A stretch of DNA of 64,000 bases, taken from the NCBI GenBank assembly GCA_903828515.1, contig CAIKMD010000003.1, positions 62,001 to 126,000 on the forward strand, written 5' to 3'. The position numbers were made by a program, and so were the translations under genes. Origin of the DNA: an uncultured Rhodospirillales bacterium (lineage in GTDB: Bacteria; Pseudomonadota; Alphaproteobacteria; ATCC43930; CGMCC-115725). The notes beneath the pieces are model-generated. The model did not search any database and was not told the DNA's origin. It saw nothing but the letters and a program-made list of their open reading frames with translations. Shown here piece by piece: positions 24,908 through 58,672 of the stretch (position 1 is the stretch's first letter; each line of letters opens with the position of its first letter).

Positions 24908-24997
24908 CGGGCGAAACTAAGAAAATCAAAAGGTATTGAAGCGGTCACGATAAAACGCCAGCTACAGATGATGCGTAGTGCGTTTAATGTACAAGCC

Positions 24998-26287
24998 ATG
25001 ACCAGCCCACCTTCCGCGCGCGGCGCCGCTCTCGACCTGATCGGCGCCGTGCTTCGTCAGAAGCATCCACTCGACGAAGCGATCGATGAGCATAGCGCGC
25101 TCGCCGAGTTGCCGCCGCGCGATCGGGCCTTCGCGCGGCTTCTGCTCGCTACCGTACTGAGACGCCTGGGTCAGATCGATGCGCTGATCGCGCATTGCCT
25201 CGAGAAGCCGCTGCCGGCGCGCGCCGCCGTGACACAGGATCTGCTGCGCCTCGGTTTGGCGCAGTTGTTGTTTTTGCGAACCCCACCGCATGCGGCGGTC
25301 GCGACGACCGTCGATCTCGCCGAGGCGCGCGGTTTTCTTTCCTACAAGGGACTCGTCAACGCGGTGCTGCGCCGCTTGAGCCAGGAAGGCGCGGCGCTGG
25401 TCGAAGCGCAAGACCAGGCCCGCCTCAACACACCGCAATGGCTGTGGCGGAATTGGTGCGAGGCCTATGGCGAGCCGACCGCGCACGCGATCGCCATCGC
25501 CCATCTTCACGAAGCGCCGCTCGACATTTCCGTCCGCAGCGATCCGCAAGCGTGGTGCGAGCGTCTCGACGCGACGCTGCTCTCGACCGGCACGTTGCGC
25601 CGGCAAGCCGGTGGTCCGATCGCCAGCCTCCCCGGTTATGGCGACGGCGAATGGTGGGTGCAGGACGCCGCCGCCGCCTTGCCGGTCAAACTCCTCGGCA
25701 ACATCGCCAACGAAACCGTGATCGATCTCTGTGCCGCACCGGGCGGCAAGACCGCGCAGATCGCCGCCGCGGGCGCGCACGCGATCGCGCTCGATCGCTC
25801 GCCACGCCGGGTCGAGCGTCTCGCCAGCAATCTCGCCCGGCTCAAGCTCACGGTCGAAACCCAGGTCGCCGATGCGATTCAGTGGCGGCCGCCCGAACCG
25901 GTCAAGTTCATCCTGTTGGATGCGCCGTGTACCGCGACCGGCGCGATCCGCCGGCATCCCGACGTGCCGCATCTCAAAACCATGGACGACGTGGGCCGGT
26001 TGGCCGGGGTTCAGGAACGGCTTCTGCATGCCGCGGTCGAGATGTTGGCGCCGGGCGGAATCCTGGTTTATTGCACCTGCTCGCTGGAACCCCAGGAAGG
26101 CCGGATGCAGATCGAGCGGTTGTTGGGCAAGGGCGCACCGGTCGTCCGCGTCCCCCTCGACGCGGCCGAAATCGGCGGGCTGAGCGAGTGCATCAGCCCG
26201 GACGGCGACCTGCGCACCCTGCCCTGTCACATGGCCGACAAGGAAGGCCTCGACGGATTTTTCGCGGCGCGACTCCGCCGCGCTTGA
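24998..26287 (+). CDS. rsmB: 16S rRNA (cytosine-967 C5)-methyltransferase RsmB-like
   Basis: A 429-residue RNA m5C methyltransferase. The N-terminal half is a NusB-like RNA-binding domain (LDEAIDEHSALAELPPRDRA), and the C-terminal half a SAM domain with DLCAAPGGKT at 243-252, LDAPCTATG with C311 and the nucleophile C361 in YCTCSLEPQEG. The start ATG at 24998 (MTSPPSARGAALDL) fits the family; ATGs at 24968/24971 in frame would add ten residues. In related bacteria this gene often heads a cluster with rpe, a heparinase-like gene and purH; here the next 7 kb are catabolic genes. Confidence 0.93.
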   Translation: MTSPPSARGAALDLIGAVLRQKHPLDEAIDEHSALAELPPRDRAFARLLLATVLRRLGQIDALIAHCLEKPLPARAAVTQDLLRLGLAQLLFLRTPPHAAVATTVDLAEARGFLSYKGLVNAVLRRLSQEGAALVEAQDQARLNTPQWLWRNWCEAYGEPTAHAIAIAHLHEAPLDISVRSDPQAWCERLDATLLSTGTLRRQAGGPIASLPGYGDGEWWVQDAAAALPVKLLGNIANETVIDLCAAPGGKTAQIAAAGAHAIALDRSPRRVERLASNLARLKLTVETQVADAIQWRPPEPVKFILLDAPCTATGAIRRHPDVPHLKTMDDVGRLAGVQERLLHAAVEMLAPGGILVYCTCSLEPQEGRMQIERLLGKGAPVVRVPLDAAEIGGLSECISPDGDLRTLPCHMADKEGLDGFFAARLRRA

Positions 26288-26320
26288 CACCTCCCTTCCG
26301 TCCCTGTCTGCTCGCGGGCG

Positions 26321-27562
26321 ATGAAAAACGAACCGCCGCGCATTGACTGGCCCGAAGAGGGCCCGACCCGTTCACCCTATCGGGTGATGAACGATCCCGA
26401 GATTTACCGCCAGGAGATGCAGCGCATCTTTCGCGGGCCGGTCTGGCATTATCTCTGCCTCGATTGCGAGATTCCCAACGCGGGCGATTTCCGCACCACC
26501 TTCATCGGCGAGAATCCGATCATCGTGACCCGCGATGCCGACGGCGGCATCAACGCGATGGTCAATCGCTGCGCCCACAAGGGCGCGCTGCTCTGCATCG
26601 ATCCGTGCGGCAATCGCAAGGAATTCGCCTGCGTCTATCATGCCTGGACCTACAGCCTCAAAGGCGACCTGACCGCCGTCGCGTTTCAGCGCGGGCTTGC
26701 CGGCACCGGCGGCATGCCGTCCGACTTCGATCTGAAGCAGCACGGACTCGAGCGTGTGCGCGTCGAGAATTTCTGCGGCATGGTCTACGGCACGTTCGAC
26801 GACAAGCTCGAAGACGTCGAAACCTATCTCGGCCCCGAGATGTCCGCGCATGTCCGCCGCATCTTCAACCGGCCGGTCGAGGTGATCGGCTATTCGCACC
26901 AGTTGCTGCCGAACAACTGGAAACTCTACATGGAGAATTCGCGCGACCCCTATCACGCGACGATCCTTCATGCCTTCTATGCGACGTTCAAACTCAACCG
27001 CCTCTCGATGCAGGGCGGCGTCGCGCTCGGCCATAATGGCTGGCACAATTTGCTTTATTCGGCGGCGGAACGCGACATCCAGAAGGACGATTACCAGGGC
27101 AAGGGATTGCGCTCGGTGATCAAGGATGTCGGTCTCGAAGACAGCTCGTTCCTGACCCGGCTGCAGGAATTCGACGACGGCATCACCGTCGCGATCCAGT
27201 CGATCTTTCCGACCTGCAACACGCAGCAGATCTACAACACGCTGGCGATCCGCCAGACCGTGCCGCTCGGCCTGACCAAGTCCGAACTGCACGTCACCTG
27301 CTTCGGCTACAAGGACGACGACGCCGAGTTGCGCCGCATGCGCAATCAGCAGGCCAATCTGATCGGCCCGGCCGGTTATGTCTCGATGGAGGACGGCTCG
27401 GTCGGCGGCTATGTCCAGCGCGGCATCGCCGGCGCGGACAAGGATGAGGCCTCGATCATGGAAATGGGCGGCCGCGACATCAAACAGTCGCCCGGCGTGC
27501 GCGCGACCGAAGTGGCGTTGCGCGGCTTCTGGCAAGCCTATCGCGAGCTGATGGGTTTCTGA
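26321..27562 (+). CDS. Aromatic ring-hydroxylating dioxygenase, alpha subunit
   Basis: A 413-residue Rieske non-heme iron oxygenase subunit. Rieske ligands are C84-x-H86 and C104-x2-H107. The mononuclear iron site has the bridging Asp209, H212 and H217 in ENSRDPYHATILH. The layout resembles anthranilate/salicylate-type (group II) oxygenases, which act on aromatic carboxylic acids, but the substrate cannot be told. It needs a reductase and ferredoxin; none is in the operon. It begins 33 bases after rsmB and its beta subunit follows after two bases, so it may also be read from the rsmB transcript. Confidence 0.92.
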   Translation: MKNEPPRIDWPEEGPTRSPYRVMNDPEIYRQEMQRIFRGPVWHYLCLDCEIPNAGDFRTTFIGENPIIVTRDADGGINAMVNRCAHKGALLCIDPCGNRKEFACVYHAWTYSLKGDLTAVAFQRGLAGTGGMPSDFDLKQHGLERVRVENFCGMVYGTFDDKLEDVETYLGPEMSAHVRRIFNRPVEVIGYSHQLLPNNWKLYMENSRDPYHATILHAFYATFKLNRLSMQGGVALGHNGWHNLLYSAAERDIQKDDYQGKGLRSVIKDVGLEDSSFLTRLQEFDDGITVAIQSIFPTCNTQQIYNTLAIRQTVPLGLTKSELHVTCFGYKDDDAELRRMRNQQANLIGPAGYVSMEDGSVGGYVQRGIAGADKDEASIMEMGGRDIKQSPGVRATEVALRGFWQAYRELMGF

Positions 27563-27564
27563 TC

Positions 27565-28050
27565 ATGGCGAAAGCAACGCTCGACGACGCCACGCGGCGG
27601 AAGATCACCGACCTCAACGATTCCTATATCCGCGCGATCGACGACGACCGGCTCGAAGAATGGCCGGTACTGTTCACCGAGAAATGCCTTTATCGCATCA
27701 CCACGCGCGAGAATTACGCGCGCGGCTTCGAGATGCCGCTGATGGAAGGCATCAGCCGCGGCATGCTGATCGATCGCGTCACCGGCTATCGCCGCGTCAA
27801 TATCTATGAGCCGCATCGTTACACGCACATGGTGTCGGGCCTTGCCGTCGAAAAAATCGACGGCAACCGCGTCACCTGCCGCCAGAACTATCTCGTCATC
27901 CGCACCATGATCAACGGCGAGATGACCGTGTTCTCGGCCGGCATCTATTACGACAAGATCCTGCTCGGCGCCGACGGCGCGATGTTCGAGGAGCGGATCG
28001 TGGTGCAGGAATCCTGCCGGGTCGATACGCTTCTCGTGATTCCGCTTTGA
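27565..28050 (+). CDS. Aromatic ring-hydroxylating dioxygenase, beta subunit
   Basis: A 161-residue small subunit of the NTF2-like fold. The sequence has DLNDSYIRAIDDDRLEEWPVLF, ITTRENYARGFEMPL and RQNYLVIRT, the normal blocks of the beta subunits of two-component dioxygenases. It has a structural role in the alpha3-beta3 hexamer. Its stop codon is overlapped by the TTG start of the next gene, so the dioxygenase and the dehydrogenase-like pair are coupled. Confidence 0.92.
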   Translation: MAKATLDDATRRKITDLNDSYIRAIDDDRLEEWPVLFTEKCLYRITTRENYARGFEMPLMEGISRGMLIDRVTGYRRVNIYEPHRYTHMVSGLAVEKIDGNRVTCRQNYLVIRTMINGEMTVFSAGIYYDKILLGADGAMFEERIVVQESCRVDTLLVIPL

Positions 28051-28625
28051 CCGACGGCGGCGCGACCCTGACCGCCGCGGAAGCGGCGTTCCTCGTTGCC
28101 GCCGCCGACACGATCATTCCCGCCGACGAACTCTCGCCCTCGGGCAGCCAGTGCGGCGTGGTCGATTTCATCGACCGCGAATTGGCGGGACCCTACGGCC
28201 AGGGCGTGCGACTGTACCGCGACGGGCCCATCGTCAAAGGCAAGAAAGAGCACGGCTATCAATTGGGCCTCGCCCCGCGCGACTTCTTTCGCATCGGGAT
28301 CGAAGCGGCTGACGATTGGACCCGCGCGACCTATCAGAAGAATTTCGCTGAACTCGACGAGGCCGGGCGCCAGGCCGCCCTGACCGCGATGGAAACCGGC
28401 AAAGCAGCGTTCGAGAATTTCAACGCGCGCGAATTCTTCGAGGCATTGATCGCGATCGTGATGGAAGGGTTCTTCGCCGATCCGATCCATGGCGGCAATC
28501 GCGACGGGGCCGGATGGAAGATGGTCGGCTATCCCGGCCTGCCCGCCGATTACCGGGCGACGATCGAACCCAATCGCGGCAAGCGCCTTGATATCGTGCC
28601 GCGCGGAATCGCGGATCGTCGATAG
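28047..28625 (+). CDS. Gluconate 2-dehydrogenase subunit 3-like protein without export signal (copy 1)
   Basis: A 192-residue protein of the gluconate 2-dehydrogenase subunit 3 family, which pairs with a GMC flavoprotein and normally carries it across the membrane. Family blocks: ADTIIPADELSPSGSQCGVVDFIDREL and EGFFADPIHGGNRDGAGWKMVGYPG. It starts at TTG 28047, overlapping the dioxygenase beta stop, and has no twin-arginine signal or hydrophobic segment, unlike the paralogue at 30490. No other start exists upstream that would add one. The pair with the next gene is probably cytoplasmic, or depends on the other subunit for export. Confidence 0.87.
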   Translation: MTDGGATLTAAEAAFLVAAADTIIPADELSPSGSQCGVVDFIDRELAGPYGQGVRLYRDGPIVKGKKEHGYQLGLAPRDFFRIGIEAADDWTRATYQKNFAELDEAGRQAALTAMETGKAAFENFNAREFFEALIAIVMEGFFADPIHGGNRDGAGWKMVGYPGLPADYRATIEPNRGKRLDIVPRGIADRR

Positions 28626-28628
28626 ATC

Positions 28629-30401
28629 ATGGTCACGCGGCTCAAGGAAACCGATGCGGTGGTGATCGGAATCGGCTGGACTGGTTCGATCCTCGCGCTG
28701 GAACTCGCCAAGGCCGGATTGAATGTCGTGGGTCTCGAACGCGGCGCCGCGCGTCGGCCCGATAAGGATTTCGCGACACCGGAAATTCGCGACGAACTCA
28801 CTTACGCCGTGCGGCAGAAACTGGTGCAGGACCCGGCGGTCGAAACTTTCACCATGCGCCACGAGAGCGGCGAGACGGCGCTGCCGATCCGCCGCTTCGG
28901 CGCGTTCCTGCCCGGCATGGGATTGGGCGGTGCCGGCACGATCTGGAACGGGCTGACCTGGCGCTTCCTGCCGTTCGATCATCAATTGCGCAGCCGGATC
29001 GAAGCGCGTTACGGCAAAAGCGCGATCCCCGTCGACATGACGATTGCCGATTGGCAGATGAGCTATGACGAACTCGAACCGTTCTATGAGCGGTTCGAGA
29101 AATTATGCGGCACCTCGGGTAAGGCAGGCAATCTCCGTGGCACGCGGATCGACGGCGGCAATATCTTCGAAGGTCCGCGCCAATCCGATTACCCCAACCG
29201 GCCGCTCACCCAATCGCAGGCCGGCGCCTTGTTCGAACGCGCGGCCAAGAGCCTCGGCTATCATCCCTATCCGACTCCGGCCAGCACGATCAGCGCCGCC
29301 TATACCAATCCCGAAGGCGCGGTAATGGGCGCTTGCGAATATTGCGGGCATTGCGACCGCTTCGGGTGTGCGGTCAACGCCAAGGCCAGCCCCAACGCCT
29401 CGGTCTTGCCGATCCTCCTGCAGGATCGTCACTTCACGTTGCGCGCCGATTCGTTCGTGACGCAGATCGTCTATGACAAGGCATCGCGCAAGGCGACCGC
29501 CGTGCGTTATGTCGATATGAACACCGGCCAGGAATTCGAACAGCCGGCCGGACTGATCGCGCTGTGCTCCTACACATTCAGCAACACGCGCCTCATGCTG
29601 CTGTCCGGCATCGGCACGCCTTACGACCCGCAGACGATGACCGGCGCGGTCGGCAAGAATTACTGCTATCAGGTCACGGCACCGCAGCATCTCTTCTTCG
29701 CCGATGAAGAGATCAACCCGTTCATGGCAACCGGCGCGCATGCGATGAACATCGACGATTTCAACGGCGACAATTTCGATCACGAGGGTCTGGGATTCTT
29801 CGGCGGTGCGTTGATCTTCGCCGGACCGACCCATGGCCGGCCAATCATGGGCCGCGCCTTGCCGCCCGGCACGCCGCGCTGGGGCCGCGCGTGGAAGCAG
29901 GCGACGGCCCAATGGTACAACCACAGTTTCTCGATCCATGCCTCGGGTGCGAGCTATGCGCATCGCGGCAATTACCTCGATCTCGATCCGACCTATCGCG
30001 ACAGACTGGGCCGGCCGCTTTTGCGCATGACCTATAATTTCCGCGACAACGACCGGAAGCTCTCGGCCTACGTCGCGGAAAAAGCATCCGGCCTGGCCAA
30101 GGCCATGAACCCGACCGTGATGGGGCCGGCGCAGCCGCGACGCGGCGATTTCGACGTCGCGCCCTATCAGTCGACGCACAATACCGGCGGCACGATCATG
30201 GGGGCCGATCCGAAGACCAGCGTGGTCAACCGCTATCTCCAATCCTGGGACGCCGACAACCTCTTCATCCTCGGCGCGTCGGTCTTTCCGCAGAACCCCG
30301 CCCATCCGCCGACCGGCGCGGTCGGGGCGCTGGCCTATTGGGCGGCGCAGGCGATCACCACGCGCTATCTCAAATCGCCGGGAAAACTCGTCTCGGCCTG
30401 A
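28629..30401 (+). CDS. GMC family oxidoreductase, gluconate 2-dehydrogenase flavoprotein type (copy 1)
   Basis: A 590-residue FAD enzyme. The dinucleotide motif is VVIGIGWTGS near residues 11-20, then VVGLERG. A four-cysteine cluster C236-x2-C239-x2-C242-x4-C247 (CEYCGHCDRFGC) probably binds an Fe-S cluster, as in FAD-glucose dehydrogenases. The active-site His appears as STHNTGGTIMG (H517), but the place where GMC enzymes have the catalytic Asn reads AHPPTG (P560), whereas the paralogue has HNPTG. Substrate unknown. It follows the subunit-3 gene after three bases. Confidence 0.9.
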   Translation: MVTRLKETDAVVIGIGWTGSILALELAKAGLNVVGLERGAARRPDKDFATPEIRDELTYAVRQKLVQDPAVETFTMRHESGETALPIRRFGAFLPGMGLGGAGTIWNGLTWRFLPFDHQLRSRIEARYGKSAIPVDMTIADWQMSYDELEPFYERFEKLCGTSGKAGNLRGTRIDGGNIFEGPRQSDYPNRPLTQSQAGALFERAAKSLGYHPYPTPASTISAAYTNPEGAVMGACEYCGHCDRFGCAVNAKASPNASVLPILLQDRHFTLRADSFVTQIVYDKASRKATAVRYVDMNTGQEFEQPAGLIALCSYTFSNTRLMLLSGIGTPYDPQTMTGAVGKNYCYQVTAPQHLFFADEEINPFMATGAHAMNIDDFNGDNFDHEGLGFFGGALIFAGPTHGRPIMGRALPPGTPRWGRAWKQATAQWYNHSFSIHASGASYAHRGNYLDLDPTYRDRLGRPLLRMTYNFRDNDRKLSAYVAEKASGLAKAMNPTVMGPAQPRRGDFDVAPYQSTHNTGGTIMGADPKTSVVNRYLQSWDADNLFILGASVFPQNPAHPPTGAVGALAYWAAQAITTRYLKSPGKLVSA

Positions 30402-30489
30402 ACGCGAAATCGTTGCTGCGTTCGCGTGGGCAATCGGTTTATCCTCCCTACAACGAAACGGTGCATGACACCGACGAAAGGGGGAGACG

Positions 30490-31215
30490 ATGGTCGATCA
30501 AACCATTCCGCGCCGCAATTTTTTGAAGGGCGCGGGGGTCGCCGGCACTGCCGTCGCGGCCACATTATCGAGCGGTTTGGCCGCTTGTGCCGACGGGCAG
30601 ACACCCAGCGCGGCCGCCGCCAAACCGGCAACCCCGCCCAGCGAGCCGCTTCTGACCCTCACGCCCGGCGAGGCGGCGTTCCTGTCGGCGGTCTACGACA
30701 CCTTCATTCCCGCCGACCAGTTCTCGCCCTCGGGGACCGATTGTGGGCTGGTCGTCTATATCGACCGCCAGTTGGCCGGGGCCTGGGGCCAGGGCGCGCG
30801 TTTCTATCGCATGGGTCCCTTCCTTCCGGGTAAGCCCGAGCAGGGTTATCAGCTGCCCCTGACGCCGCGCGAATATTTCGCCAACGGCATTGCCGCCGCC
30901 AATGCGTGGTCGCGCAAGACCTATGGCACGCCGTTCGACCAACTCAGCCCGGCCGACCGCGACGCCGCGCTCAAGACCATGGACGGCGGCAAGGCCGAGT
31001 TCGTCGACTTCAATTCAAAGCGGTTTCTCGAAACACTTTATCAGTCGGCGATGGAGGGGTTCTTCGCCGATCCGATCTATGGCGGCAATCGCGACAAGGT
31101 CTCGTGGAAGATGGTGAACTATCCCGGCCTGCCGGCGACCTATGCCACCAAGGCGGCCGAGTATCGCGGCAAGAAGGTCAACCTGTCGCCGCAATCCATC
31201 GCCGATCTCAACTGA
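30490..31215 (+). CDS. Gluconate 2-dehydrogenase subunit 3-like protein with Tat signal (copy 2)
   Basis: A 241-residue subunit 3 homologue. It begins MVDQTIPRRNFLKGAGVAGT, a clear twin-arginine signal (RRNFLKG), and a possible lipobox (GLAAC, near residue 36) suggests it may be lipid-anchored in the periplasm. An Ala-Pro linker leads to the family domain (YDTFIPADQFSPSGTDCGL). It probably takes its GMC partner, encoded 11 bases downstream, through the Tat system. It is the paralogue of the gene at 28047, which lacks the signal. Confidence 0.92.
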   Translation: MVDQTIPRRNFLKGAGVAGTAVAATLSSGLAACADGQTPSAAAAKPATPPSEPLLTLTPGEAAFLSAVYDTFIPADQFSPSGTDCGLVVYIDRQLAGAWGQGARFYRMGPFLPGKPEQGYQLPLTPREYFANGIAAANAWSRKTYGTPFDQLSPADRDAALKTMDGGKAEFVDFNSKRFLETLYQSAMEGFFADPIYGGNRDKVSWKMVNYPGLPATYATKAAEYRGKKVNLSPQSIADLN

Positions 31216-31226
31216 GGGGAACCGTC

Positions 31227-32996
31227 ATGGCGAAGACGATGAAACACGTCGATGCGGTATGCGTCGGCATGGGTTGGACCGGCAGCATCATGGCGCGCGA
31301 ACTGACCAAGGCGGGTTTGACCGTGGTCGGATTGGAACGCGGCGCCAACCGCACGCCGGCGGAGAATTTCGTCCTGCCGACGGTGCGCGACGAACTCAAA
31401 TACCGACTGCGGCTCGACACCATGCTCGACACCTCGGTCGAGACGATCACCATGCGCCACGAACCCGGCGAGACCGCTTTGCCGATGCGACGCTGGGAAA
31501 CCTTCAACATGGGCGACGGGCTCGGCGGATCGGGGCTGCATTGGAACGGCATCACCTGGCGCTTCGCGCCCAGCGAGTTCGTGCTCCGCAGTCACCTCAC
31601 GCAACGCTATGGCAAGAACGCGATCCCCGCCGACGTGACGATTCAGGATTGGGGCATCACCTATGACGAACTTGAGCCGCATTACGACCGGTTCGAGAAG
31701 CTTTGCGGCGTGTCGGGCAAGGCCGGCAACCTCAAAGGCCAGATCGTCGAGGGCGGCAATCCGTTCGAAGGCCCGCGCCAGAACGAATATCCCAACAAGC
31801 CGCTGATCCTGTCGCAAGGCGGCGCGATGTTCATGAAGGCGGCGCAGGGCCTGGGCTATCACCCGTTCCAGACGCCGGCCTCGAATTCCAGCGCGCCCTA
31901 TACCAACCCCGAGGGCCTGACCATCGGCCAATGCCAGTATTGCGGCCATTGCGAATTCTTCGGCTGTGAATCGAACGCCAAGGCGAGCCCCAATGTCTGC
32001 GTTCTGCCGGCCCTGATGCGCGATTCGAAATTCGAACTGCGCACCGACTCTTATGTCAGCCGGCTGATCTACGACAAGCACGCCCGGAAAGTGACCGGCG
32101 TCGTCTATATCGACCGTCGCACCGGCGAGGAAATCACTCAGACCGCCGATATCGTCATCCTCTCGGCCTATCCGTTCAACAACACGCTGCTCCTGCTGCT
32201 GGCAGGGATCGGGCAGCCCTATGACCCGCATACCGGCAAGGGGACCGTCGGCAAGAACTACTGCTATCAGACCATCGGCGGCGTCAGTCTGTTCGTCGAG
32301 GAAGAGATCAATCCGTGGATCGGCACCGGCACCTCCGCCGCGTCGATCGACGATTTCCAGGCCGACAATTTCGATCACGGTGGTCTCGGCTTCTTCGGCG
32401 GCGGTTATATCTGCGTGTCGGGCAGTGGCGGCCGGCCGATCCAGGTTCGCGCGACCCCACCAGGCACGCCGCGCTGGGGCACCGCGTGGAAAGAGGCGAA
32501 TGCCAAGTGGTACAACCACAATCTCAGCCTCACCTCGCATGGCTGCAATTACGCACATCGCAACAATTATCTCGATCTCGATCCGACCTATAAAGACGCG
32601 ATCGGCCGGCCTTTGGTGCGCCAGACCTATAATTACCGCGACAACGACTACAAAATGTCGGCTTACGTCACGGCAAAGGCGGCCGAGATCGCCAAGGCGA
32701 TGGGCGCCAAGATCGTCAATCCGCCGCAGCCGCGCACCGGCAATTTCGGCGCCACCAACGGCCAGGCGACGCATCACACCGGCGGCTGCATCATGGGCAC
32801 CGATCCGAAGACCAGCGTGGTGAACCGCTATCTCCAGAACTGGAACGCGAGCAATCTTTTCGTGATGGGCGGCGCGGTCTATCCGCAAAATGCCGGGCAC
32901 AATCCGACCGGCACGATGGGCGCACTTGCCTATTGGTCGGCGAACGCGATCGTGAACCAGTATCTCAAATCGCCGGGGGCATTGGTTCACGCGTGA
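31227..32996 (+). CDS. GMC family oxidoreductase, gluconate 2-dehydrogenase flavoprotein type (copy 2)
   Basis: A 589-residue FAD enzyme, paralogue of the protein at 28629 and alignable along its whole length with hardly any gaps. It has the flavin motif VCVGMGWTGS, the cysteine cluster C236, C239, C242, C247 (CQYCGHCEFFGC), the active-site His in HHTGGCIMG (516-517) and the catalytic Asn559 in HNPTG, all complete. The partner subunit has a Tat signal and a c-type cytochrome follows with a four-base overlap, so electrons from the substrate probably go to the respiratory chain in the periplasm. Substrate unknown; sugar acids and alcohols are the known range of the family. Confidence 0.92.
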   Translation: MAKTMKHVDAVCVGMGWTGSIMARELTKAGLTVVGLERGANRTPAENFVLPTVRDELKYRLRLDTMLDTSVETITMRHEPGETALPMRRWETFNMGDGLGGSGLHWNGITWRFAPSEFVLRSHLTQRYGKNAIPADVTIQDWGITYDELEPHYDRFEKLCGVSGKAGNLKGQIVEGGNPFEGPRQNEYPNKPLILSQGGAMFMKAAQGLGYHPFQTPASNSSAPYTNPEGLTIGQCQYCGHCEFFGCESNAKASPNVCVLPALMRDSKFELRTDSYVSRLIYDKHARKVTGVVYIDRRTGEEITQTADIVILSAYPFNNTLLLLLAGIGQPYDPHTGKGTVGKNYCYQTIGGVSLFVEEEINPWIGTGTSAASIDDFQADNFDHGGLGFFGGGYICVSGSGGRPIQVRATPPGTPRWGTAWKEANAKWYNHNLSLTSHGCNYAHRNNYLDLDPTYKDAIGRPLVRQTYNYRDNDYKMSAYVTAKAAEIAKAMGAKIVNPPQPRTGNFGATNGQATHHTGGCIMGTDPKTSVVNRYLQNWNASNLFVMGGAVYPQNAGHNPTGTMGALAYWSANAIVNQYLKSPGALVHA

Positions 32997-33364
32997 GCAG
33001 GGTCAGAACACGTGTCGCTTGTATCGCCATCGCCTTCGCACTGACCGGTGTGCCGCCATCGTGGGCGACCGACGCGCAGCATGGCGCGGCGGTGTTCGAA
33101 AGCTGCAAGGCCTGTCACAACGACCAGGATGACGCGCTGGGCCCCAATCTGATCGGCGTGTTCGGCCGCAAGGCCGGTACGTTGCCCGGCTTTCACTATT
33201 CGAACGCGATGAAGAACGCGGGCTTCGTCTGGACCGCCGCCAATCTCAAGGATTATCTCACCGACCCGCAGGCCAAGGTCAAAGGCAACCGGATGCCGTT
33301 TTCGGGCCTGGCCAATCCCGGCGATCTCGACGATCTCATCGCCTATCTGCAAACCCTGAAATAG
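32993..33364 (+). CDS. Periplasmic class I c-type cytochrome
   Basis: A 123-residue cytochrome c starting with GTG at 32993, four bases inside the GMC gene. A signal peptide ends in SWA before residue 26. The haem motif is C38-K-A-C41-H42 and the axial Met is M101 in GNRMPF, giving the c2/c550 pattern with GPNLIGVFGRKAG in between. It is the natural electron acceptor for the Tat-exported dehydrogenase. The operon ends here; rpe starts 61 bases on. Confidence 0.92.
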   Translation: MSRVRTRVACIAIAFALTGVPPSWATDAQHGAAVFESCKACHNDQDDALGPNLIGVFGRKAGTLPGFHYSNAMKNAGFVWTAANLKDYLTDPQAKVKGNRMPFSGLANPGDLDDLIAYLQTLK

Positions 33365-33425
33365 CGGATTTTCGGCCCGGCCCGCGCGCCTTGCCCCCGC
33401 GCCCCATCCCTGATACCAAACCGGT

Positions 33426-34088
33426 ATGCAGCAGAAAGTTCGCATCGCGCCCTCGATCCTGTCGGCCGATTTCGCCCGTTTGGGCGAGGAGGTCCGCGCG
33501 ATCGAGACGGCGGGGGCGGATTATGTGCATGTCGATGTGATGGACGGGCATTTCGTGCCCAATCTCACCATCGGGCCGAATGTCGTGAAGGCCCTGCGGT
33601 CGCATTCGAAATTGCCCTTCGACGTCCATCTGATGATCGCGCCGGTCGATCCCTACGTCGCCGAATTCGCCGCGGCCGGCGCCGACATCATCACCCTCCA
33701 TCCCGAGGCCGGACCGCATCTCCACCGCACGCTGCAACTCATCAAAAGCCACGGCAAAAAAGCGGGCGTGGCGCTCAACCCGGCGACGCCGGTCGATGCG
33801 GTGGATTACGTCATGGACGCCGTCGATCTCATTCTGGTGATGAGCGTCAATCCGGGCTTCGGCGGCCAGAGCTTCATTCCCGAGGCGCTGGAGAAAATCA
33901 AAATTCTTCGCGCCCGCATCGACAAGTCGGGCCGCGCGATCGATCTCGAAGTCGATGGCGGCATCAACGACGACACCGCGCGCGCCGCGATCGCCGCGGG
34001 CGCCGACGTTCTGGTCGCGGGCACCGCGACGTTTACCGGTGGCGCCGGCGCCTATGCCGGCAACATCCGACGCTTGCGCGGCGGATAA
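33426..34088 (+). CDS. rpe: Ribulose-phosphate 3-epimerase
   Basis: A 220-residue TIM-barrel enzyme that interconverts D-ribulose 5-phosphate and D-xylulose 5-phosphate. The motifs are complete: [44 protein letters not shown] and EVDGGIN. It lies downstream of the cytochrome c gene and directly ahead of the heparinase-like gene. The order rpe-heparinase-purH is often seen in this class. Confidence 0.95.
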
Positions 34089-34092
34089 CCCG

Positions 34093-35718
34093 GTGACCGA
34101 GACCATGCGCTCGCTCTATCACGGCTCGGCGGTCTATCACCTGAGCCTGTGGAGCCGGACGCCCCGCGAATTGGCGTTACGGCTCGAGCCGTGGCCCGGC
34201 GATCCGGCGCGCGGCGAGGCGATCCTCGCCGGCGAGTTTCGCTTCGAGAACGAATCGGTCCGCGCCCCGTCACCACCATGGCGCGCGAGCGCCAGCGAAG
34301 AATGGGGCGCGGCGCTCAACGGGTTTCAATGGCTGAGCGATCTCGCGGCGGTCGGCACCGACGCGGCCTGGGATGCGGCGCGGCTATGGACCGCCGAATG
34401 GCTCGAGCGGTTCGAGCTCTATGATCGGGTCGCCTGGCGCGCGGACGTCGTGGCCGATCGCCTGGTCGCCTGGCTCGAGCATTTCGACAGGCTCGCCACC
34501 GATCCGAAATTGCAGCGCGCCCTGGTGCGCAGCTTCACGCGGCAGACCAAGCATCTCGCCCGCGTCGCCCATCGCGAGGAGCCCGGACTGAAACGTCTCG
34601 GTGCGTTGCGCGGCCTGATCGCCGCGCAAGCCGCCGAGGCACGGGAGCGTCCGCTGACCCGCGCGCTGCAGCATTTCGCGCGCGAGATCGAGTTCCAGAT
34701 TCTGCCCGATGGCGGCCACGCATCGCGCAATCCGGCGGCGCAACTCTTGGCGCTGCGCTATCTGGTCGACGCGCGCGCCGCGCTGATCGCGTCGCATAAC
34801 GAGATCCATGGCGCGGTACAGCAGGCGATCGACCGCGCCGCGCCGATGTTGCGTTTCTTTCGCCACGGCGACGGTCGTTTCGCGCTCTTCAACGGCTCGG
34901 ACGAGGGCGACGGCGCAGTAATCGACCGCGTGCTGTCGCGCGCCGACGCCAAGGGCCGCGCGCCCATTACCGCGCCGCATACCGGCTATGAACGCTTGCG
35001 CGCGGGGCATTCGCTCGTGCTGTTCGATTGCGGCAAGCCGCCGCCGCCCGGACTCGATACCGAGGCGCATGCCGGCATCCTCGCCTTCGAAATGAGTTAC
35101 GGGCGCGAACGCCTGATCGTCAATTGCGGGTCCTATCAGGGACCCAGCATCGAGTGGCGCGGCGCGATGCGGGCAACCGCCGCACATTCGACCGTGGTCG
35201 CCGCCGACACCAGCGCGCTCGAACTGCGCCCCGAAGGCGGTGTCCTCGCCGGCCCGAGCGAAGTCACCTCGATGCGCGCGGAAGACGCCGGCGCGCAATG
35301 GGTCGCGGCGAGCCATGACGGCTATAAGAAGACGCTGGGCCTCACCCATGCGCGGCAATTGTTTCTCGCCGCCGACGGCGAGGATCTGCGCGGCGAAGAT
35401 CGGCTGACCGGTCGCGCGGGTCAGGGCTTTGCCATTCGCTTTCATCTTCATCCCGGCGTGACCGCGTCGCTGACCCAGGACGGCAACGCGGTACTGCTGC
35501 GTCTGCCGAGCGGCATCGGCTGGCGCCTGCGCACGCAAGGCGCGGTCCTCAGCATGGGCGAAAGCGTCTATCTGGGCGGCGGCGACGTCAAGAAGACACG
35601 TCAGGTCGTGCTCGACGGCCATGTCGGCAGCAACGGCGCCACGGTCAAATGGGGCATCCGCCGCGAGGCCAGGAAGCCCAACGAAAATCCCGAACCGGCT
35701 TTGGCCGAGGAACTCTAA
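34093..35718 (+). CDS. Heparinase II/III family protein
   Basis: A 541-residue protein with an alpha/alpha toroid N-terminal domain (WDAARLWTAEWLERFELYDRVAWRAD; PDGGHASRNPAAQL, a typical Asn-rich active-site stretch) and a beta-sandwich C-terminal domain (TAAHSTVVAADTSALEL). Start is GTG at 34093 (ATG at 34105 also possible). There is no signal peptide, as in most alphaproteobacterial members found next to purH. Whether it cleaves a polysaccharide is unknown. Confidence 0.9.
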   Translation: MTETMRSLYHGSAVYHLSLWSRTPRELALRLEPWPGDPARGEAILAGEFRFENESVRAPSPPWRASASEEWGAALNGFQWLSDLAAVGTDAAWDAARLWTAEWLERFELYDRVAWRADVVADRLVAWLEHFDRLATDPKLQRALVRSFTRQTKHLARVAHREEPGLKRLGALRGLIAAQAAEARERPLTRALQHFAREIEFQILPDGGHASRNPAAQLLALRYLVDARAALIASHNEIHGAVQQAIDRAAPMLRFFRHGDGRFALFNGSDEGDGAVIDRVLSRADAKGRAPITAPHTGYERLRAGHSLVLFDCGKPPPPGLDTEAHAGILAFEMSYGRERLIVNCGSYQGPSIEWRGAMRATAAHSTVVAADTSALELRPEGGVLAGPSEVTSMRAEDAGAQWVAASHDGYKKTLGLTHARQLFLAADGEDLRGEDRLTGRAGQGFAIRFHLHPGVTASLTQDGNAVLLRLPSGIGWRLRTQGAVLSMGESVYLGGGDVKKTRQVVLDGHVGSNGATVKWGIRREARKPNENPEPALAEEL

Positions 35719-35746
35719 GCCGTTCGGACGTCACGGGAGGAAAACG

Positions 35747-37399
35747 ATGCCGCTCGACGCGGCGGTCATCATCGTCGGTGGCGGCCCCGCCGGGCTGATG
35801 CTGGCGAACGAGCTGGGCCAGCGCGGCATCGCGACGCTGTTGCTGTGCGACCGGCCCTCGACCAGCCCGCATCCCCAGGCCAATGCGACCCAGGCGCGCA
35901 CGATGGAATTCTATCGCCGTCTCGGTTTCTCCGAAACGCTGCGCCAACGCGGCCTGCCATCCGATCACCCGACCGACATCGCCTATTTCACCCGCGCCAC
36001 GCGCCATGAACTCGCGCGGCTCGAACAGCCGCCGGCGCGCGACGCGCAGAAACTGATCAAGACAATGTCGGGCGCGTGGAGCGCCGCCGAACTGCCGCAT
36101 CGCTGCTCGCAAATGTATATCGAACAGGTGCTGCTGCAGGAGGCGAAGAAGCATCAATCGGTGACGCTCGACTTCGGCTGGCGCGTCACCGGATTGACCG
36201 ATCATGGCGGCCAGGTCGAGGTCGAAGCCGAGCGCGTCGCCGACGGCGCCAAACGCAGCGTCAGCGCGCTCTATCTCGCCGGTTGCGACGGACCGCGCAG
36301 CACGGTGCGCCATCTGCTCGACATTCACTACGAAGGCGAGGCGCAAGCCGACCGGCCCTATATGAGCGGCCGGCAACTGACGACGTATCTGCGTGCGCCC
36401 AAGGTCTATGAGGTCATCAAGTTCAAGCGCGCCTGGCAATACTGGTCGATGAATCACGGCCAGCGCGGCACCATGGTGACGATCGACGGCAAGGGCGAAT
36501 TCACCTTCGGCATGCAATTGCCGAAAGGCAAAGAGGAAAGCGATATTCCCTTCGCCGAAAGCATATCGCGGTTTCAGACCATGCTCGGCGCAGACGTGCC
36601 GGTCGAGATCATCAATCGCTCGTCGTGGCATGCGGGCTATGCGCTGGTGGCGCCGTCCTATCAGCGCGGTCGCGTGTTCATGGCGGGCGACGCCGTGCAT
36701 CTGTTCACGCCGACCGGCGGCCTCGGCTACAACACGGCGATCGAGGACGTGGTCAATCTCGCATGGAAACTGGCCGCGTCGGTGCAGGGCTGGGGCGGCG
36801 CGGGTTTGCTGGACACGTATGAAACCGAACGCCGCCGCGTCGCCTTGCGCAATACCGGCTTTGCCCGTTACTTCGCTGATTCGATCGGGCGGTTCGTGGC
36901 GCCGCCCGAGATCGAGGACGACACGCCAGAAGGCCAGGCCGCGCGCGACCGCGCCGGTGTCTATCTCAATCGTCATGTTCGCGAGGAGTTCAACATCCCC
37001 GGCATCACCTTCGGAGCGCGCTATGACGGATCGGCCATTATCGCGGGCGATGGCGCGACACCGCCGCCCGACGCGATGAACGATTACGTGCCGAGCGCCA
37101 TCCCCGGCGGCCGCGCGCCGCATGCCTGGCTCGCCGATGGGCGCTCGCTTTACGACACGTTGGGTTTCGAATTCTCGCTGTTACGGCTGGGGACGACAGC
37201 GCCCGATGGATCGGCGTTCGTCAAAGCCGCCGCGTCGCGCGGCATGCCGCTGACCGTGGTCGACCGGCCCGAGGCGGAACTGCGCGATCTTTATGGCGCC
37301 GACCTTGCGCTCATCCGTCCGGACCAGATCGTCGCGTGGCGCGGCAATCGAATGCCCGACGATGCCGGCGCGCTGCTTGCCACCGTGACCGGCGGATGA
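35747..37399 (+). CDS. FAD-dependent aromatic monooxygenase (phenol hydroxylase/MhpA family), copy 1
   Basis: A 550-residue group A flavoprotein hydroxylase. The FAD motif is VGGGPAGLMLANELGQRG at the N-terminus, the second flavin motif is GDAVHLFTPTGGLGYN near residue 320, and a thioredoxin-like C-terminal domain ends in LALIRPDQIVAWRG. An AGGAGGAAAACG-type ribosome site (GGGAGG) precedes the ATG. The family hydroxylates phenolic rings with NAD(P)H and O2. It is the first of a tandem pair; the next copy starts in its stop codon. Substrate not known. Confidence 0.9.
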   Translation: MPLDAAVIIVGGGPAGLMLANELGQRGIATLLLCDRPSTSPHPQANATQARTMEFYRRLGFSETLRQRGLPSDHPTDIAYFTRATRHELARLEQPPARDAQKLIKTMSGAWSAAELPHRCSQMYIEQVLLQEAKKHQSVTLDFGWRVTGLTDHGGQVEVEAERVADGAKRSVSALYLAGCDGPRSTVRHLLDIHYEGEAQADRPYMSGRQLTTYLRAPKVYEVIKFKRAWQYWSMNHGQRGTMVTIDGKGEFTFGMQLPKGKEESDIPFAESISRFQTMLGADVPVEIINRSSWHAGYALVAPSYQRGRVFMAGDAVHLFTPTGGLGYNTAIEDVVNLAWKLAASVQGWGGAGLLDTYETERRRVALRNTGFARYFADSIGRFVAPPEIEDDTPEGQAARDRAGVYLNRHVREEFNIPGITFGARYDGSAIIAGDGATPPPDAMNDYVPSAIPGGRAPHAWLADGRSLYDTLGFEFSLLRLGTTAPDGSAFVKAAASRGMPLTVVDRPEAELRDLYGADLALIRPDQIVAWRGNRMPDDAGALLATVTGG

Positions 37400-39036
37400 C
37401 GATGGACGCACAGGTGATCATCGCCGGCGGCGGGCCGGCCGGGCTGATGCTGGCGAACGAGCTGGGGCGACGCGGCATCAAGACGCTGCTGCTGTGCGAC
37501 CGGCCATCGACCACCAGTTTCCCGCAAGCGAACGCCACCCAGGCGCGCACGATGGAGCACTACCGGCGCCTGGGCTTTGCCGACAAAGTCCGGACGGTCG
37601 GCCTGCCGCCGGATTATCCGACCGACGTCGCCTATTTCACCCGCATCGGACAGCACGAACTGGCGCGCTTCGCCTTGCCGTCGGCGAAAGAAACCGGCGA
37701 CCTGATCAAATCCTTGTCAGGGTCGTGGAGCGCCGCCGAACTGCCGCATCGCGTCTCGCAGCTTTATGTCGAGCGCGTGCTGCGCGAGGAAGCCGAAAAG
37801 CTTCCGTCGGTCACGCTGCGCTTCGGCTGGCGCGTCGACGGCTTCACGCAAAACGCCGAGAGCGTGACGGTCGAAGCGACCTGCGTCGCCGACGGCACGA
37901 AACACCATTTCACCGGGTCCTATCTTGCCGGCTGCGATGCGGCGCGCGGCGCGGTGCGCCGGCAACTCGGGTTCCGCTATCGCGGCGAGGCGGGCACGGC
38001 GCGCGACTACATGGGCGGCCGGATGCTGTCGATCTGGTTTCGTGCGCCCAAACTCTATGACCTCATCCCGTTCAAGCGCGCCTGGCAATACTGGGCGGTC
38101 AACGCCGAACAACGCGGCCTCATCGTCGCGATCGACGGCAAGTCCGAATTCATCTTCATGTTTCAACTGAAGCCCGGTGCCGACGAAGGCGCGATTGCCG
38201 ACGATTGGGCGAAGGCCGCGCTTTACGCCGCGCTCGGCTGTCCGTGCGACATCGAGATCATCGACCGCGTGCCGTGGACAGCCGGATTGGCCCTGGTATC
38301 CGAACGCTTTCAGGACGGACGCGTGTTCCTTGCCGGCGATGCCGTGCATCTGTTCACCCCGACCGGCGGGCTTGGCTACAACACCGCGATCGAGGACGCG
38401 GTCAATCTCGGCTGGAAGCTTGCCGCGACCTTGAAGGGTTGGGGCGGAGCGAACCTGCTCGCCAGTTACGAACGCGAGCGTCTGCCGGTGGCCGAGCGCA
38501 ACACCGGCTTCGCGCGCTATTACGCCAATTCCATCGGCAACGCCCCCGCCCCGTCCGAACTCGAGGACGACAGCGAAGCGGGCGAGGCCGCGCGCAACGC
38601 GGCAGGAGTCTATCTCAACCGGCATGCGCGCGAGGAATTCAACATTCCGGGGATTACCTTCGGCGCACGTTACGACGGATCGCCGTTGATCCTCGGCGAC
38701 GGCAGCACCCCGCCACCCGATCAGGCCAATACCTATGTTCCTTCCGCCGTCCCCGGCGGCCGTGCACCGCATGCGTGGCTGAGCGACGGGCGCTCGCTCT
38801 ACGATACGTTCGGTTTCGAGTTCACCTTGCTGCGGCTCGGCAAAAATCCGCCCGATGCCGGCGCTTTCGCCAAGGCAAGCATGCCCGTCACCCTTGTCGA
38901 TTGCAGCGAGCCGGGATTACGCGATCTCTATGACGCCGATCTCGTGTTGATCCGTCCCGACCAGATCGTCGCCTGGCGCGGCGACCGCGTGCCGGAAGAT
39001 GTGGATAAGCTCCTCGCGACGGTGACCGGCGCTTGA
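37396..39036 (+). CDS. FAD-dependent aromatic monooxygenase (phenol hydroxylase/MhpA family), copy 2
   Basis: A 546-residue paralogue of the preceding gene with the same architecture: GGGPAGLMLANELGRRG, the GDAVHLFTPTGGLGYN motif and the C-terminal LVLIRPDQIVAWRG. Long identical blocks (for example GITFGARYDGS) show recent duplication, while the substrate-facing middle differs. The start overlaps the stop of copy 1 (ATGA). Tandem copies suggest two related substrates or two subunits of one enzyme. Confidence 0.9.
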   Translation: MTMDAQVIIAGGGPAGLMLANELGRRGIKTLLLCDRPSTTSFPQANATQARTMEHYRRLGFADKVRTVGLPPDYPTDVAYFTRIGQHELARFALPSAKETGDLIKSLSGSWSAAELPHRVSQLYVERVLREEAEKLPSVTLRFGWRVDGFTQNAESVTVEATCVADGTKHHFTGSYLAGCDAARGAVRRQLGFRYRGEAGTARDYMGGRMLSIWFRAPKLYDLIPFKRAWQYWAVNAEQRGLIVAIDGKSEFIFMFQLKPGADEGAIADDWAKAALYAALGCPCDIEIIDRVPWTAGLALVSERFQDGRVFLAGDAVHLFTPTGGLGYNTAIEDAVNLGWKLAATLKGWGGANLLASYERERLPVAERNTGFARYYANSIGNAPAPSELEDDSEAGEAARNAAGVYLNRHAREEFNIPGITFGARYDGSPLILGDGSTPPPDQANTYVPSAVPGGRAPHAWLSDGRSLYDTFGFEFTLLRLGKNPPDAGAFAKASMPVTLVDCSEPGLRDLYDADLVLIRPDQIVAWRGDRVPEDVDKLLATVTGA

Positions 39037-50468: not shown

Positions 50469-52202
50469 TCAGAGGGTGACGATCACGTTGAGCACGGCTT
50501 GGCGCTTTTCCTCGCGCACGACCTTAATCGCACGCGCCAAGGCGGCGGGAAGATCGGCCGGCTTCTCGACGCGTTCGCCGTAGCCGCCGCTGGCTTCGAC
50601 CAGCTTCTCGAAGGCGGGTGACGGATTGAGATCGGCCAGGGTGTGGCCGTCATTCTCGGCCTGCGCCAGGCCTGTCGCGTACATCGCCAGGGTCGAACGA
50701 CGCACCGCGTTATAGACCGCGTTGTTGTTGATGACGGTGAGGATCGGCAGGTTATGCGCCTGCGCCGTCCAATGACACGCGGTCGGATTGGCGAACATGT
50801 AAGCGCCGTCGCCGACCGTGCAGACCACCAGCTTGTCCGGTGCCGCGAGCTTGGCGCCGAGCGCCGCGCCGACGCCCCAGCCGAGACCGCCCGCTGGGCC
50901 CGAACCATAAAGCGTTCCGGCTTTTTCGCGTTTGCAGAATTCGGTGCGCACCCAATACTCGTTGACGATCAGCGCATCGGGACCGACGGCCTCGCCGAGA
51001 CAATGATTGAGATATTCGATCTTGATCGAAGGCTCCGTCGCGGCTTTATCGAGCGTCGCCTTCCATTGCGCGCGCATCGCCTTCCAACGTTCGCCCAGGC
51101 GATTGCGTCGCGTCTCGACCTTCGCGCCCTTATCGAGGCCCTTCTCGCCCAACGCTTCGTCGAGCACGGTCAGCGCGGCGGTGGTTTCCGCGGTGATCGA
51201 GAGATCGCATTGAAAGCCGCGCATCGGATAGCGCGTGAAGGCCGGATCGTCGCCGATCTGGACGACCTTGCAGCCGGCCGGCGGACTTTCCTGCGAGGGA
51301 AACCACGGCGCGTCGCTATCCAGGATGATGACGAGATCGGCCTCGCTCAGGAACGGCTTCGGCACCGAGCCCATGTTCATCGGATGGCTCGACGGCAGGC
51401 AGACATAGCGCGCGTTGAACGAGACGACCGGAATGGCGAAACGTTCGGTCAGCCGCGCCAACGCCTCCACGGCCTGGTTGGTGCGGCCGGAGGCCGAGGT
51501 GATGATCAAGGGCCGTTCGGCCGCTTCGACCATCCCGGTCAGCGTCGCGATCGCGGCGGGATTGGGATAGGCCATGCTCGGATGCGCGCGCGCCATCATC
51601 GGCCGGTTCGAGGCGGGTACCGTGCCGCCCAAAGCTTCGCGCGGCAGGGTGAGATAGGCCGAGCCGCGCGGCGCGGTCATCATCACCTCGAGCGCGCGCG
51701 AGACGAGATCTTCTGCCTGCATCGGCAGCTTCATCTCGTAATCCCATTTGACGAACTCGCGCAGCATGCCGGCCTGATCGAACATTTCCTGGCCCCAATG
51801 GACCGGGCTGTTGCGCGAGCCGAGGACACCTTGTTCGGTGATCGGGGTGCGGCCGGCCATCAGAAGGATCGGCACGTTATCGCGATAGGCATCGGCCATG
51901 CAGTTGATCGTATTGGCGGTGCCGACATTCGTGTGGACCATCACCGCCTGGGGCTTGCCCGCCACCATGTAATAGCCATGCGCCATGGAGACGGCGCAGT
52001 TCTCATGCGGGATGACCATGAGTTGCGGGATGTCGGCCTTCTTGCGCTTGCTGGCGGCCAGTCCTTCGACCAGGGGCGCGAAATCGGTGCCGGGATTGAC
52101 GAACATGTGGTCGATGCCGCTGGCCTTCAGGGAACGCAACAGCACCTCGGCGGCGCTTTGGGTTCCCTCGGCGCTCGAGCCGGGAAAGACGGGGTCGGTC
52201 AT
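50469..52202 (-). CDS. Thiamin diphosphate-dependent enzyme, acetolactate synthase-like
   Basis: A 577-residue ThDP enzyme of the acetolactate synthase / benzoylformate decarboxylase superfamily. The pyrimidine-side glutamate is in VIPHENCAVSMAHGYY. The ThDP-Mg motif is GDGAYMFANPTACH, with the end TVINNN. The length and absence of a regulatory subunit gene suggest a catabolic decarboxylase or carboligase rather than biosynthetic IlvB. Substrate unknown; gtdA nearby hints at an aromatic keto acid, an inference only. Confidence 0.9.
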   Translation of the reverse strand: MTDPVFPGSSAEGTQSAAEVLLRSLKASGIDHMFVNPGTDFAPLVEGLAASKRKKADIPQLMVIPHENCAVSMAHGYYMVAGKPQAVMVHTNVGTANTINCMADAYRDNVPILLMAGRTPITEQGVLGSRNSPVHWGQEMFDQAGMLREFVKWDYEMKLPMQAEDLVSRALEVMMTAPRGSAYLTLPREALGGTVPASNRPMMARAHPSMAYPNPAAIATLTGMVEAAERPLIITSASGRTNQAVEALARLTERFAIPVVSFNARYVCLPSSHPMNMGSVPKPFLSEADLVIILDSDAPWFPSQESPPAGCKVVQIGDDPAFTRYPMRGFQCDLSITAETTAALTVLDEALGEKGLDKGAKVETRRNRLGERWKAMRAQWKATLDKAATEPSIKIEYLNHCLGEAVGPDALIVNEYWVRTEFCKREKAGTLYGSGPAGGLGWGVGAALGAKLAAPDKLVVCTVGDGAYMFANPTACHWTAQAHNLPILTVINNNAVYNAVRRSTLAMYATGLAQAENDGHTLADLNPSPAFEKLVEASGGYGERVEKPADLPAALARAIKVVREEKRQAVLNVIVTL

Positions 52203-53714: not shown

Positions 53715-56165
<2,451 letters not shown>

Positions 56166-57293: not shown

Positions 57294-57343
57294 CTCGAAC
57301 TCGATGGCCTCGTTGGCTGTTGCCCGCAACGGTGCTTCGACCC

Positions 57344-58462: not shown

Positions 58463-58672
58463 GGCTGGCGGGTTCACGCTCGTTGGAGGCGGCTTCCGGC
58501 ATCCCGGAAAGCTTCGGGAAACCCCGCCCAACCCGGCCCGAACGGCCGGGGCGGAACGGGAAGAAATCATAGCATAACCGAGCCAGCCGGTACACCCTTA
58601 CGCAGGGCCGGAAAGCTTCAAAAACTGCCTGATTTTCGGCCTTTTCGGCCGCTCGGTCGCGCCGGCCGCAGC

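Follow-up and report, generated by a model that had tools for sequence, protein, structure and literature searches.

Gene content and layout of the locus

The window analyzed here is a 64,000-nucleotide stretch of the genome of an uncultured Rhodospirillales bacterium (assembly GCA_903828515.1, contig CAIKMD010000003.1, positions 62,001 to 126,000 of the forward strand), in which the two genes of a Rieske oxygenase are followed by two pairs of genes for a gluconate 2-dehydrogenase subunit 3 family protein and a GMC flavoprotein, and then by a cytochrome c gene. The original prediction, made from the DNA letters alone, had described these seven genes as lying on one strand, with 88 bases separating the two pairs and with no ferredoxin or reductase gene for the oxygenase. 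Pfam matches bear this out: all seven genes are present on the plus strand, the gap of 88 bases is correct, the remaining gaps are of 2-11 bases or are 4-base overlaps (as between beta and sub3-1), and no ferredoxin or reductase is found among the matches of the block. The genes and their flanks are as follows.

24968..26287, plus strand: rsmB, 16S rRNA methyltransferase, upstream flank (Pfam Methyltr_RsmB-F 5e-41, NusB 2e-25)
26321..27562, plus strand: alpha, Rieske oxygenase subunit of the TphA2/AndAc type (Pfam Rieske 2e-15, Ring_hydroxyl_A 2e-11)
27565..28050, plus strand: beta, oxygenase subunit with SnoaL fold (7vju_B 2.5e-30)
28047..28625, plus strand: sub3-1, gluconate 2-dehydrogenase subunit 3 family, TTG start (Pfam Gluconate_2-dh3 4e-31)
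28629..30401, plus strand: GMC1, GMC flavoprotein (Pfam GMC_oxred_C 2e-18)
30402..30489, plus strand: gap of 88 bases separating unit A from unit B (see below)
30490..31215, plus strand: sub3-2, subunit 3 with a twin-arginine translocation (Tat) signal, RRNFLKG (Gluconate_2-dh3 7e-29; TAT_signal 23.4 bits, cut-off 22.7)
31227..32996, plus strand: GMC2, large subunit of a flavin adenine dinucleotide (FAD) dehydrogenase, motifs intact (GMC_oxred_C 6e-21)
32993..33364, plus strand: cytochrome c, single haem, GTG start at 32993 (Pfam Cytochrom_C 1.4e-8)
33426..34088, plus strand: rpe, ribulose-phosphate 3-epimerase, downstream flank (Pfam 5e-86)

The same-strand run extends past the block, with rsmB ending 33 bases before alpha and rpe starting 61 bases after the cytochrome c gene. 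A scan of 26250-33450 for promoter- and terminator-like sites gave no more of them than shuffled sequences did, and all lie on the minus strand. In the whole genome of the window (G000), sub3-1 and sub3-2 are the only two subunit 3 genes.

Two units with different conservation

Comparison with a sister genome of the same genus (G001, 95% complete, the only other genome of the genus searched) shows that the block is two units, not one, because G001 has the first four genes alone between the same flanks. There the order is rsmB-alpha-beta-sub3-GMC1, followed by 0.8 kb without GMC2 or a cytochrome gene and then by rpe, and a search of the whole genome gave one GMC match. Unit A, comprising alpha, beta, sub3-1 and GMC1, is thus common to both genomes of the genus, and unit B, comprising sub3-2, GMC2 and the cytochrome c, is not. 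Identity between the window and G001 is 82% for alpha, 67% for beta and 75% for GMC1, with 82% for rsmB and 84% for rpe. The genes of unit A are under purifying selection: ratios of nonsynonymous to synonymous divergence (dN/dS) are 0.17 for alpha, 0.34 for beta, 0.28 for sub3-1 and 0.23 for GMC1, alongside 0.16 for rsmB and 0.17 for rpe, at a dS of about 0.7-0.8 for the genes of unit A.

Across the class, searches of 385 sampled genomes, in which the own genome was included, G001 lay outside the sample and at most four alpha and three GMC candidates per genome were scored, which makes within-genome counts lower bounds, recovered alpha homologs (E to 1e-60) in 50 genomes and GMC homologs (E to 1e-100) in 15. 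In six other sampled genomes (G073, G105, G201, G254, G269 and G298) both occur, separated by 1.7 Mb in G105 and lying on separate contigs in the rest. No subunit 3, GMC or cytochrome gene was found in any of 20 other alpha neighborhoods, drawn from 17 genomes (mostly the best of the 50-genome list, plus lower-ranking same-family loci of G010 and G012). Reciprocally, among 28 GMC loci including the window, alpha was labeled only at the window and in G001, and the three loci recovered by a contig search with GMC1 (L043-L045) have neither alpha nor beta. Plasmid records contain 136 relatives of the GMC protein (E to 1e-30) and 75 of alpha (E to 1e-60). Searches of open PMC papers turned up no combined Rieske/GMC/subunit 3 system. 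Of all genomes searched, this strain alone has the seven-gene order, which the original prediction had proposed to look for elsewhere, and G001 keeps alpha-beta-sub3-GMC1 without the second pair or the cytochrome; this goes part of the way towards the outcome that the prediction had named as refuting it.

A recent tandem duplication of the two pairs was considered and rejected, as GMC2 branches outside L043, L044 and L045 (five-row set, 98/88). In L043 (4219-7896, from a Xanthobacteraceae metagenome-assembled genome, MAG), a second Tat-type sub3, at the end of the contig, follows a Tat-type sub3-GMC pair. The sub3 of the pair clusters with sub3-1 (85/90, unstarred) and the second one falls outside, so that tandem pairs may predate this genus; in the subunit 3 gene tree as a whole, only 3 of the 14 inner forks are starred.

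Loss of the export signal and of two active-site residues

Subunit 3 of FAD dehydrogenases is described in PMC6719666 as a hitchhiker that is needed for the folding and secretion of its partner. Of the 48 subunit 3 genes examined, 44 encode a twin arginine (or KR) with a hydrophobic stretch. The combination is missing in sub3-1 of the window, in its G001 counterpart, in L044 (from a Hyphomicrobiales MAG) and in L038 (from a genome of the same family as that of the window). Sub3-1 begins 7 residues before the conserved core, and no ATG, GTG or TTG occurs further up its frame. Of the two pairs of the window, only the second carries a Tat signal on its subunit 3, and the pairs are hence not alike.

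The flavoprotein partner of sub3-1 is also altered. In GMC1, the FAD-linking His105 is replaced by Ile and the catalytic Asn560 by Pro, with the same two changes in G001, and the catalytic His517 is retained along with the four Cys of the cluster loop (CEYCGHCDRFGC), a putative iron-sulfur (Fe-S) cluster site. His105 aligns with the fructose dehydrogenase His of the same motif, and the spacing of 43 residues between His517 and Asn560 equals that between His476 and Asn519 of the Burkholderia glucose dehydrogenase, to which the residues were mapped by motif and spacing rather than by direct alignment; PMC6719666 describes His105 of that enzyme as carrying the FAD and His476/Asn519 as the likely catalytic pair. 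A loss of the catalytic His from GMC1 was considered and discarded, as the fructose dehydrogenase alignment assigns this role to the motif's first His, which is kept, leaving Asn as the only catalytic residue lost.

Conservation was scored across 48 aligned GMC proteins (with three fragments removed), of which 43 form a comparison set that excludes the three signal-less GMCs (GMC1, G001 and L044) and the L038/L086 pair. Seven of the 118 columns conserved at 93% or more in this set are altered in one or more of GMC1, G001 and L044; alterations common to all three are confined to two columns, namely His105 (to Ile, Ile and Val) and Asn560 (to Pro, Pro and Ala), both of which are invariant (43/43) in the others. 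In total, three conserved columns are changed in GMC1, four in G001 and four in L044, as against 0-7 when single comparison rows are held against the rest. L038 and L086 share an Asn to Gly change at the same position, keep the FAD-linking His and are missing one Cys of the cluster loop. A structure prediction for GMC1 from five sequences had a mean pLDDT of 39.7 and was not used.

In a midpoint-rooted GMC tree of 41 of the 51 rows (three fragments and seven near-duplicates or relatives were left out; L083 and L085 form long branches), GMC1, G001 and L044 fall together in a supported clade (99/96), the rows closest to it being exported pairs with nothing lost; assuming that the root lies outside this clade, the His and Asn losses are derived. 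Signal loss and Asn loss coincide in a Fisher test (4/4 against 0/43) that disregards the relatedness of the rows; mapped on the tree, signal and Asn were lost together in two events, one in the GMC1/G001/L044 clade and one in L038. The count leaves out L040, L041, L042 and L086, which have no subunit 3 assigned beside them (the first three are also broken or cut); the Tat rows were listed by hand, and the signal call of L031 was settled by eye and by a signal-pattern scan. The original prediction had both pairs in the periplasm, a claim that finds no support for the first pair: sub3-1 is without a signal peptide in the window and in G001, and GMC1 is without the FAD-linking His and the catalytic Asn.

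The neighborhoods of the other two signal-less pairs fit a cytoplasmic role in aromatic metabolism, without being proof of it. In L044, the sub3 gene has a 4-base overlap with the end of a gene for a thiamine pyrophosphate (TPP) enzyme of the PRK06154 type, and genes for an HpaD-like extradiol dioxygenase, a MarR regulator, an NtaA-type monooxygenase and a fumarylacetoacetase lie near the pair. In L038 (359-4914), a separate signal-less sub3/GMC pair lies downstream of an FMO-like flavoprotein gene of the same orientation. These neighbors belong to families of soluble, cytoplasmic enzymes.

Unit B presents a contrasting picture, and here the earlier view of a periplasmic respiratory FAD dehydrogenase is supported: the unit combines a Tat signal, the FAD-linking His, the His/Asn pair, the Cys cluster and a c-type cytochrome. 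GMC2 matches fructose dehydrogenase (7w2j) at 6.8e-30, though identity to that enzyme is low, and the arrangement of Tat-signal subunit 3, GMC protein and c-type cytochrome is likewise that of fructose dehydrogenase and of the glucose dehydrogenase described in PMC6719666. Unlike the three-haem cytochrome subunit of such complexes, of which that of L032 is an example (its cluster has members at 10 of the 28 GMC loci), the cytochrome of unit B has one CxxCH in 123 aa, with an N-terminal signal recognized by eye, and this short protein has relatives encoded next to GMC genes in L035, L045, L081, L082, L083 and L089. Unit A shares with the direct-electron-transfer FAD dehydrogenases the subunit 3 and a GMC protein with the catalytic His and the Cys loop, and differs from them in the absence of the Tat signal, the FAD-linking His and the catalytic Asn. 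Beside unit A, G001 has no cytochrome c gene, and in the window one is present only after unit B.

The oxygenase and its neighbors

Against solved structures, alpha is closest to TphA2 (7vju/7q04, 477 bits), followed by NagG, a salicylate 5-hydroxylase (7c8z, 297 bits), and beta has TphA3 (7vju_B, 2.5e-30) at the top together with 3eby. Beta scores above the cut-off for SnoaL_4 (1e-9) and below it for Ring_hydroxyl_B (24.9 of 27 bits), and reaches 2e-47 with the NCBIfam model AndAd, at 160.6 bits below the model cut-off of 230. As the AndAc (alpha) and AndAd (beta) scores are both well under their cut-offs, the oxygenase is given no name. With residue roles taken from PMC9060491, alpha resembles terephthalate 1,2-dioxygenase (TphA2A3) in the iron ligands H210/H215/D356, the family carboxylate arginine R309 and I290. 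Of the second-carboxylate set N224/S243/R390, it has N224 and R390 and differs by a Leu at S243, as does G001; the full set is found in 11 of the 20 other alpha loci of the class and is absent from the five least similar (L069-L073). The characterized members of this oxygenase family act on aryl carboxylates (PMC9060491), and we infer from these residues an aryl carboxylate substrate, probably para-substituted and not necessarily terephthalate.

Compared with the tph operon, the block is without TphB and TphA1, neither of which has a homolog in the whole window, and sub3-1 and GMC1 stand after the A2-A3 homologs (cf. Variovorax CP063167). That they occupy the slot of tphB-tphA1, an idea suggested by this one Variovorax operon, was rejected as an explanation, with TphB in none and TphA1 in one (L069) of the 20 alpha neighborhoods, and is kept only as a weak hint. 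In L073 (8007-11507 in G012, of the same family), a related alpha/beta pair lies beside a Rieske ferredoxin and a pyridine-nucleotide reductase, making up a full three-component system such as the window block does not have; the nearby rpe of L073 adjoins a RuBisCO large-subunit gene. Elsewhere in the window, two adjacent genes for PRK06126-type FAD-dependent monooxygenases lie between a heparinase-like gene and purH (35621-39036); G001 has one relative (73%) downstream of its heparinase-like gene, after genes for a PHO4 phosphate transporter and a PhoD-like phosphatase. A TPP-dependent enzyme gene is present at 50469-52202 on the minus strand; in L044, it is a TPP enzyme gene that the signal-less sub3 overlaps. 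Further, gyrB and dnaA on the minus strand (53715-60058) suggest that the window may be close to the replication origin.

A proposed role for unit A

The account that we favor, if tentatively, sees in unit A a module for aromatic acids in the cytoplasm, with GMC1 as a flavin dehydrogenase adapted to act beside the oxygenase, and in unit B a conventional exported dehydrogenase. The loss of the export signal and of two active-site residues suggests that GMC1 probably works inside the cell next to the oxygenase. The terephthalate-dioxygenase-like enzyme would hydroxylate an aryl carboxylate in the cytoplasm, with a cis-diol carboxylate as the product that we think most likely; GMC1, an apparently non-exported relative of exported FAD dehydrogenases, would oxidize in the same compartment either this product or an alcohol precursor of the oxygenase substrate. 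Once dehydrogenated, the cis-diol carboxylate would lose CO2 and become available for ring cleavage by LigB-type extradiol dioxygenases of the genome. Unit B, Tat-exported and not conserved with unit A, would pass electrons from a hydroxylated substrate to cytochrome c. A possible functional parallel is offered by the NADH-recycling TsaC/TsaD as described in PMC10579966, where a dehydrogenase encoded with a Rieske oxygenase acts on the product and returns reducing power; TsaC is a nicotinamide adenine dinucleotide (NAD)-linked short-chain dehydrogenase/reductase (SDR), whereas GMC1 is a flavoprotein.

The gene content of G000 bears on several of these steps. With 16 LigB-family matches, ring cleavage is available; no intradiol dioxygenase was found in the genome, which has a single PdxA-family gene and 13 Ring_hydroxyl_A matches. 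Nine of the latter fall within about 60 kb (C6, 564969-625328) with two LigB-family matches among them, and this cluster is probably an aromatic island. As for electron supply, a Fer2 match in the window lies at about 382-543 on the minus strand, in a 967-aa frame 26 kb from the block. The genome has 12 such matches, including a 322-aa reductase with Fer2 and NAD-binding domains on C7 which could serve any oxygenase from its unlinked position. A dihydrodiol dehydrogenase and a reductase of the kind usual in the tph pathway are not obvious in G000, where SDR-type dehydrogenases were not searched, and this leaves room for a more daring version, which we consider very improbable, in which sub3-1/GMC1 would oxidize the cis-diol carboxylate and send the two electrons via its own Fe-S cluster to the Rieske center of alpha. 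Such a closed loop would replace both the NAD-linked dihydrodiol dehydrogenase and the reductase, with the loss of the FAD-linking His lowering the flavin potential towards what is needed and the kept Cys cluster as the exit wire.

Several points weigh against the proposed cytoplasmic module. The linkage of alpha/beta with sub3/GMC is known from two genomes of one genus only; the Leu at S243 speaks against terephthalate itself as the substrate; G000 has no conspicuous TphA1-type reductase (best E 2.7e-6); and model GMC enzymes that lose the FAD-linking His or the second catalytic residue drop by about one to three orders of magnitude, so that by analogy GMC1 may be weak or inactive on alcohols. 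Agaricus pyranose dehydrogenase without the FAD-linking His is reported in PMC4148704 to bind FAD still, at a lower potential and with activity kept, while flavin reduction is roughly a thousandfold slower and efficiency falls by about one order. Changing the second catalytic residue of the same enzyme lowers efficiency by two to three orders, the first His being the only base (PMC4950071). In pyranose 2-oxidase, the N593C variant has 94% less turnover with dichlorophenolindophenol (DCPIP), keeps 58% of its efficiency with DCPIP and 0.06% of that with oxygen (PMC4190269). On these precedents, GMC1 could be a slow or re-specialized dehydrogenase with a lower-potential flavin, or it could be inactive.

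The last possibility, that GMC1/sub3-1 is a pseudo-enzyme serving as an FAD-binding scaffold or a stabilizer of the oxygenase without substrate turnover, draws on the fact that the two lost residues are those that the model enzymes need for fast flavin reduction, and on the low number of changes overall, since the 3 of 118 conserved columns altered in GMC1 are as few as in intact relatives. Yet the catalytic base His517 and the four cluster-loop Cys are kept and the dN/dS of GMC1 is like that of its neighbors, and we regard this reading as rather unlikely. It is unlikely, too, that the units are unrelated catabolic genes with unconnected substrates, brought together by a site between rsmB and purH that tolerates insertions. 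The two FAD monooxygenase genes in the same stretch, the PHO4 and PhoD genes found there in G001, the lack of sub3 or GMC in all 20 other alpha neighborhoods and the six sampled genomes with alpha and GMC at different places would agree with it, but two species at the dS given above both retain the four genes of unit A in close spacing, and beta and sub3-1 overlap by 4 bases in the window.

We consider it quite improbable that both GMC pairs are exported and oxidize an aromatic alcohol, aldehyde or glycoside outside the cell, with the oxygenase hydroxylating the imported product. Unit B indeed lies 88 bases downstream on that strand and makes up a full dehydrogenase of the exported kind, cytochrome c included, and L043, with two Tat-type sub3 genes 2.3 kb apart and one GMC between them, indicates that two exported pairs may adjoin. 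Against this, sub3-1 has no signal, G001 has no sub3-2 able to carry the pair and GMC1 has lost two invariant residues. The originally predicted pathway, periplasmic oxidation followed by cytoplasmic ring hydroxylation, thus stands in part: unit B is of the exported type and the oxygenase belongs to a family whose characterized members act on aryl carboxylates, but the export of both pairs is not supported. Oxidation first outside and then inside is possible in this strain; it is not what the two genomes share, and the combined pathway is not the best account of the block.

As far as its genes reveal, unit A is a real, somewhat surprising variant: a dioxygenase operon with an apparently non-exported, active-site-altered member of an otherwise exported family. 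It marks a lineage in which subunit 3, known as a secretion hitchhiker, has no recognizable export signal and the pair is nonetheless kept beside a predicted cytoplasmic oxygenase, with a partner that lacks exactly the two residues that in its relatives fix the flavin and supply the second member of the catalytic pair. Provided that it is active, GMC1 would illustrate how a sugar-type dehydrogenase of the exported kind can be retained in the cell and adapted, and would offer a flavin-linked candidate for the reaction that follows a Rieske oxygenase.

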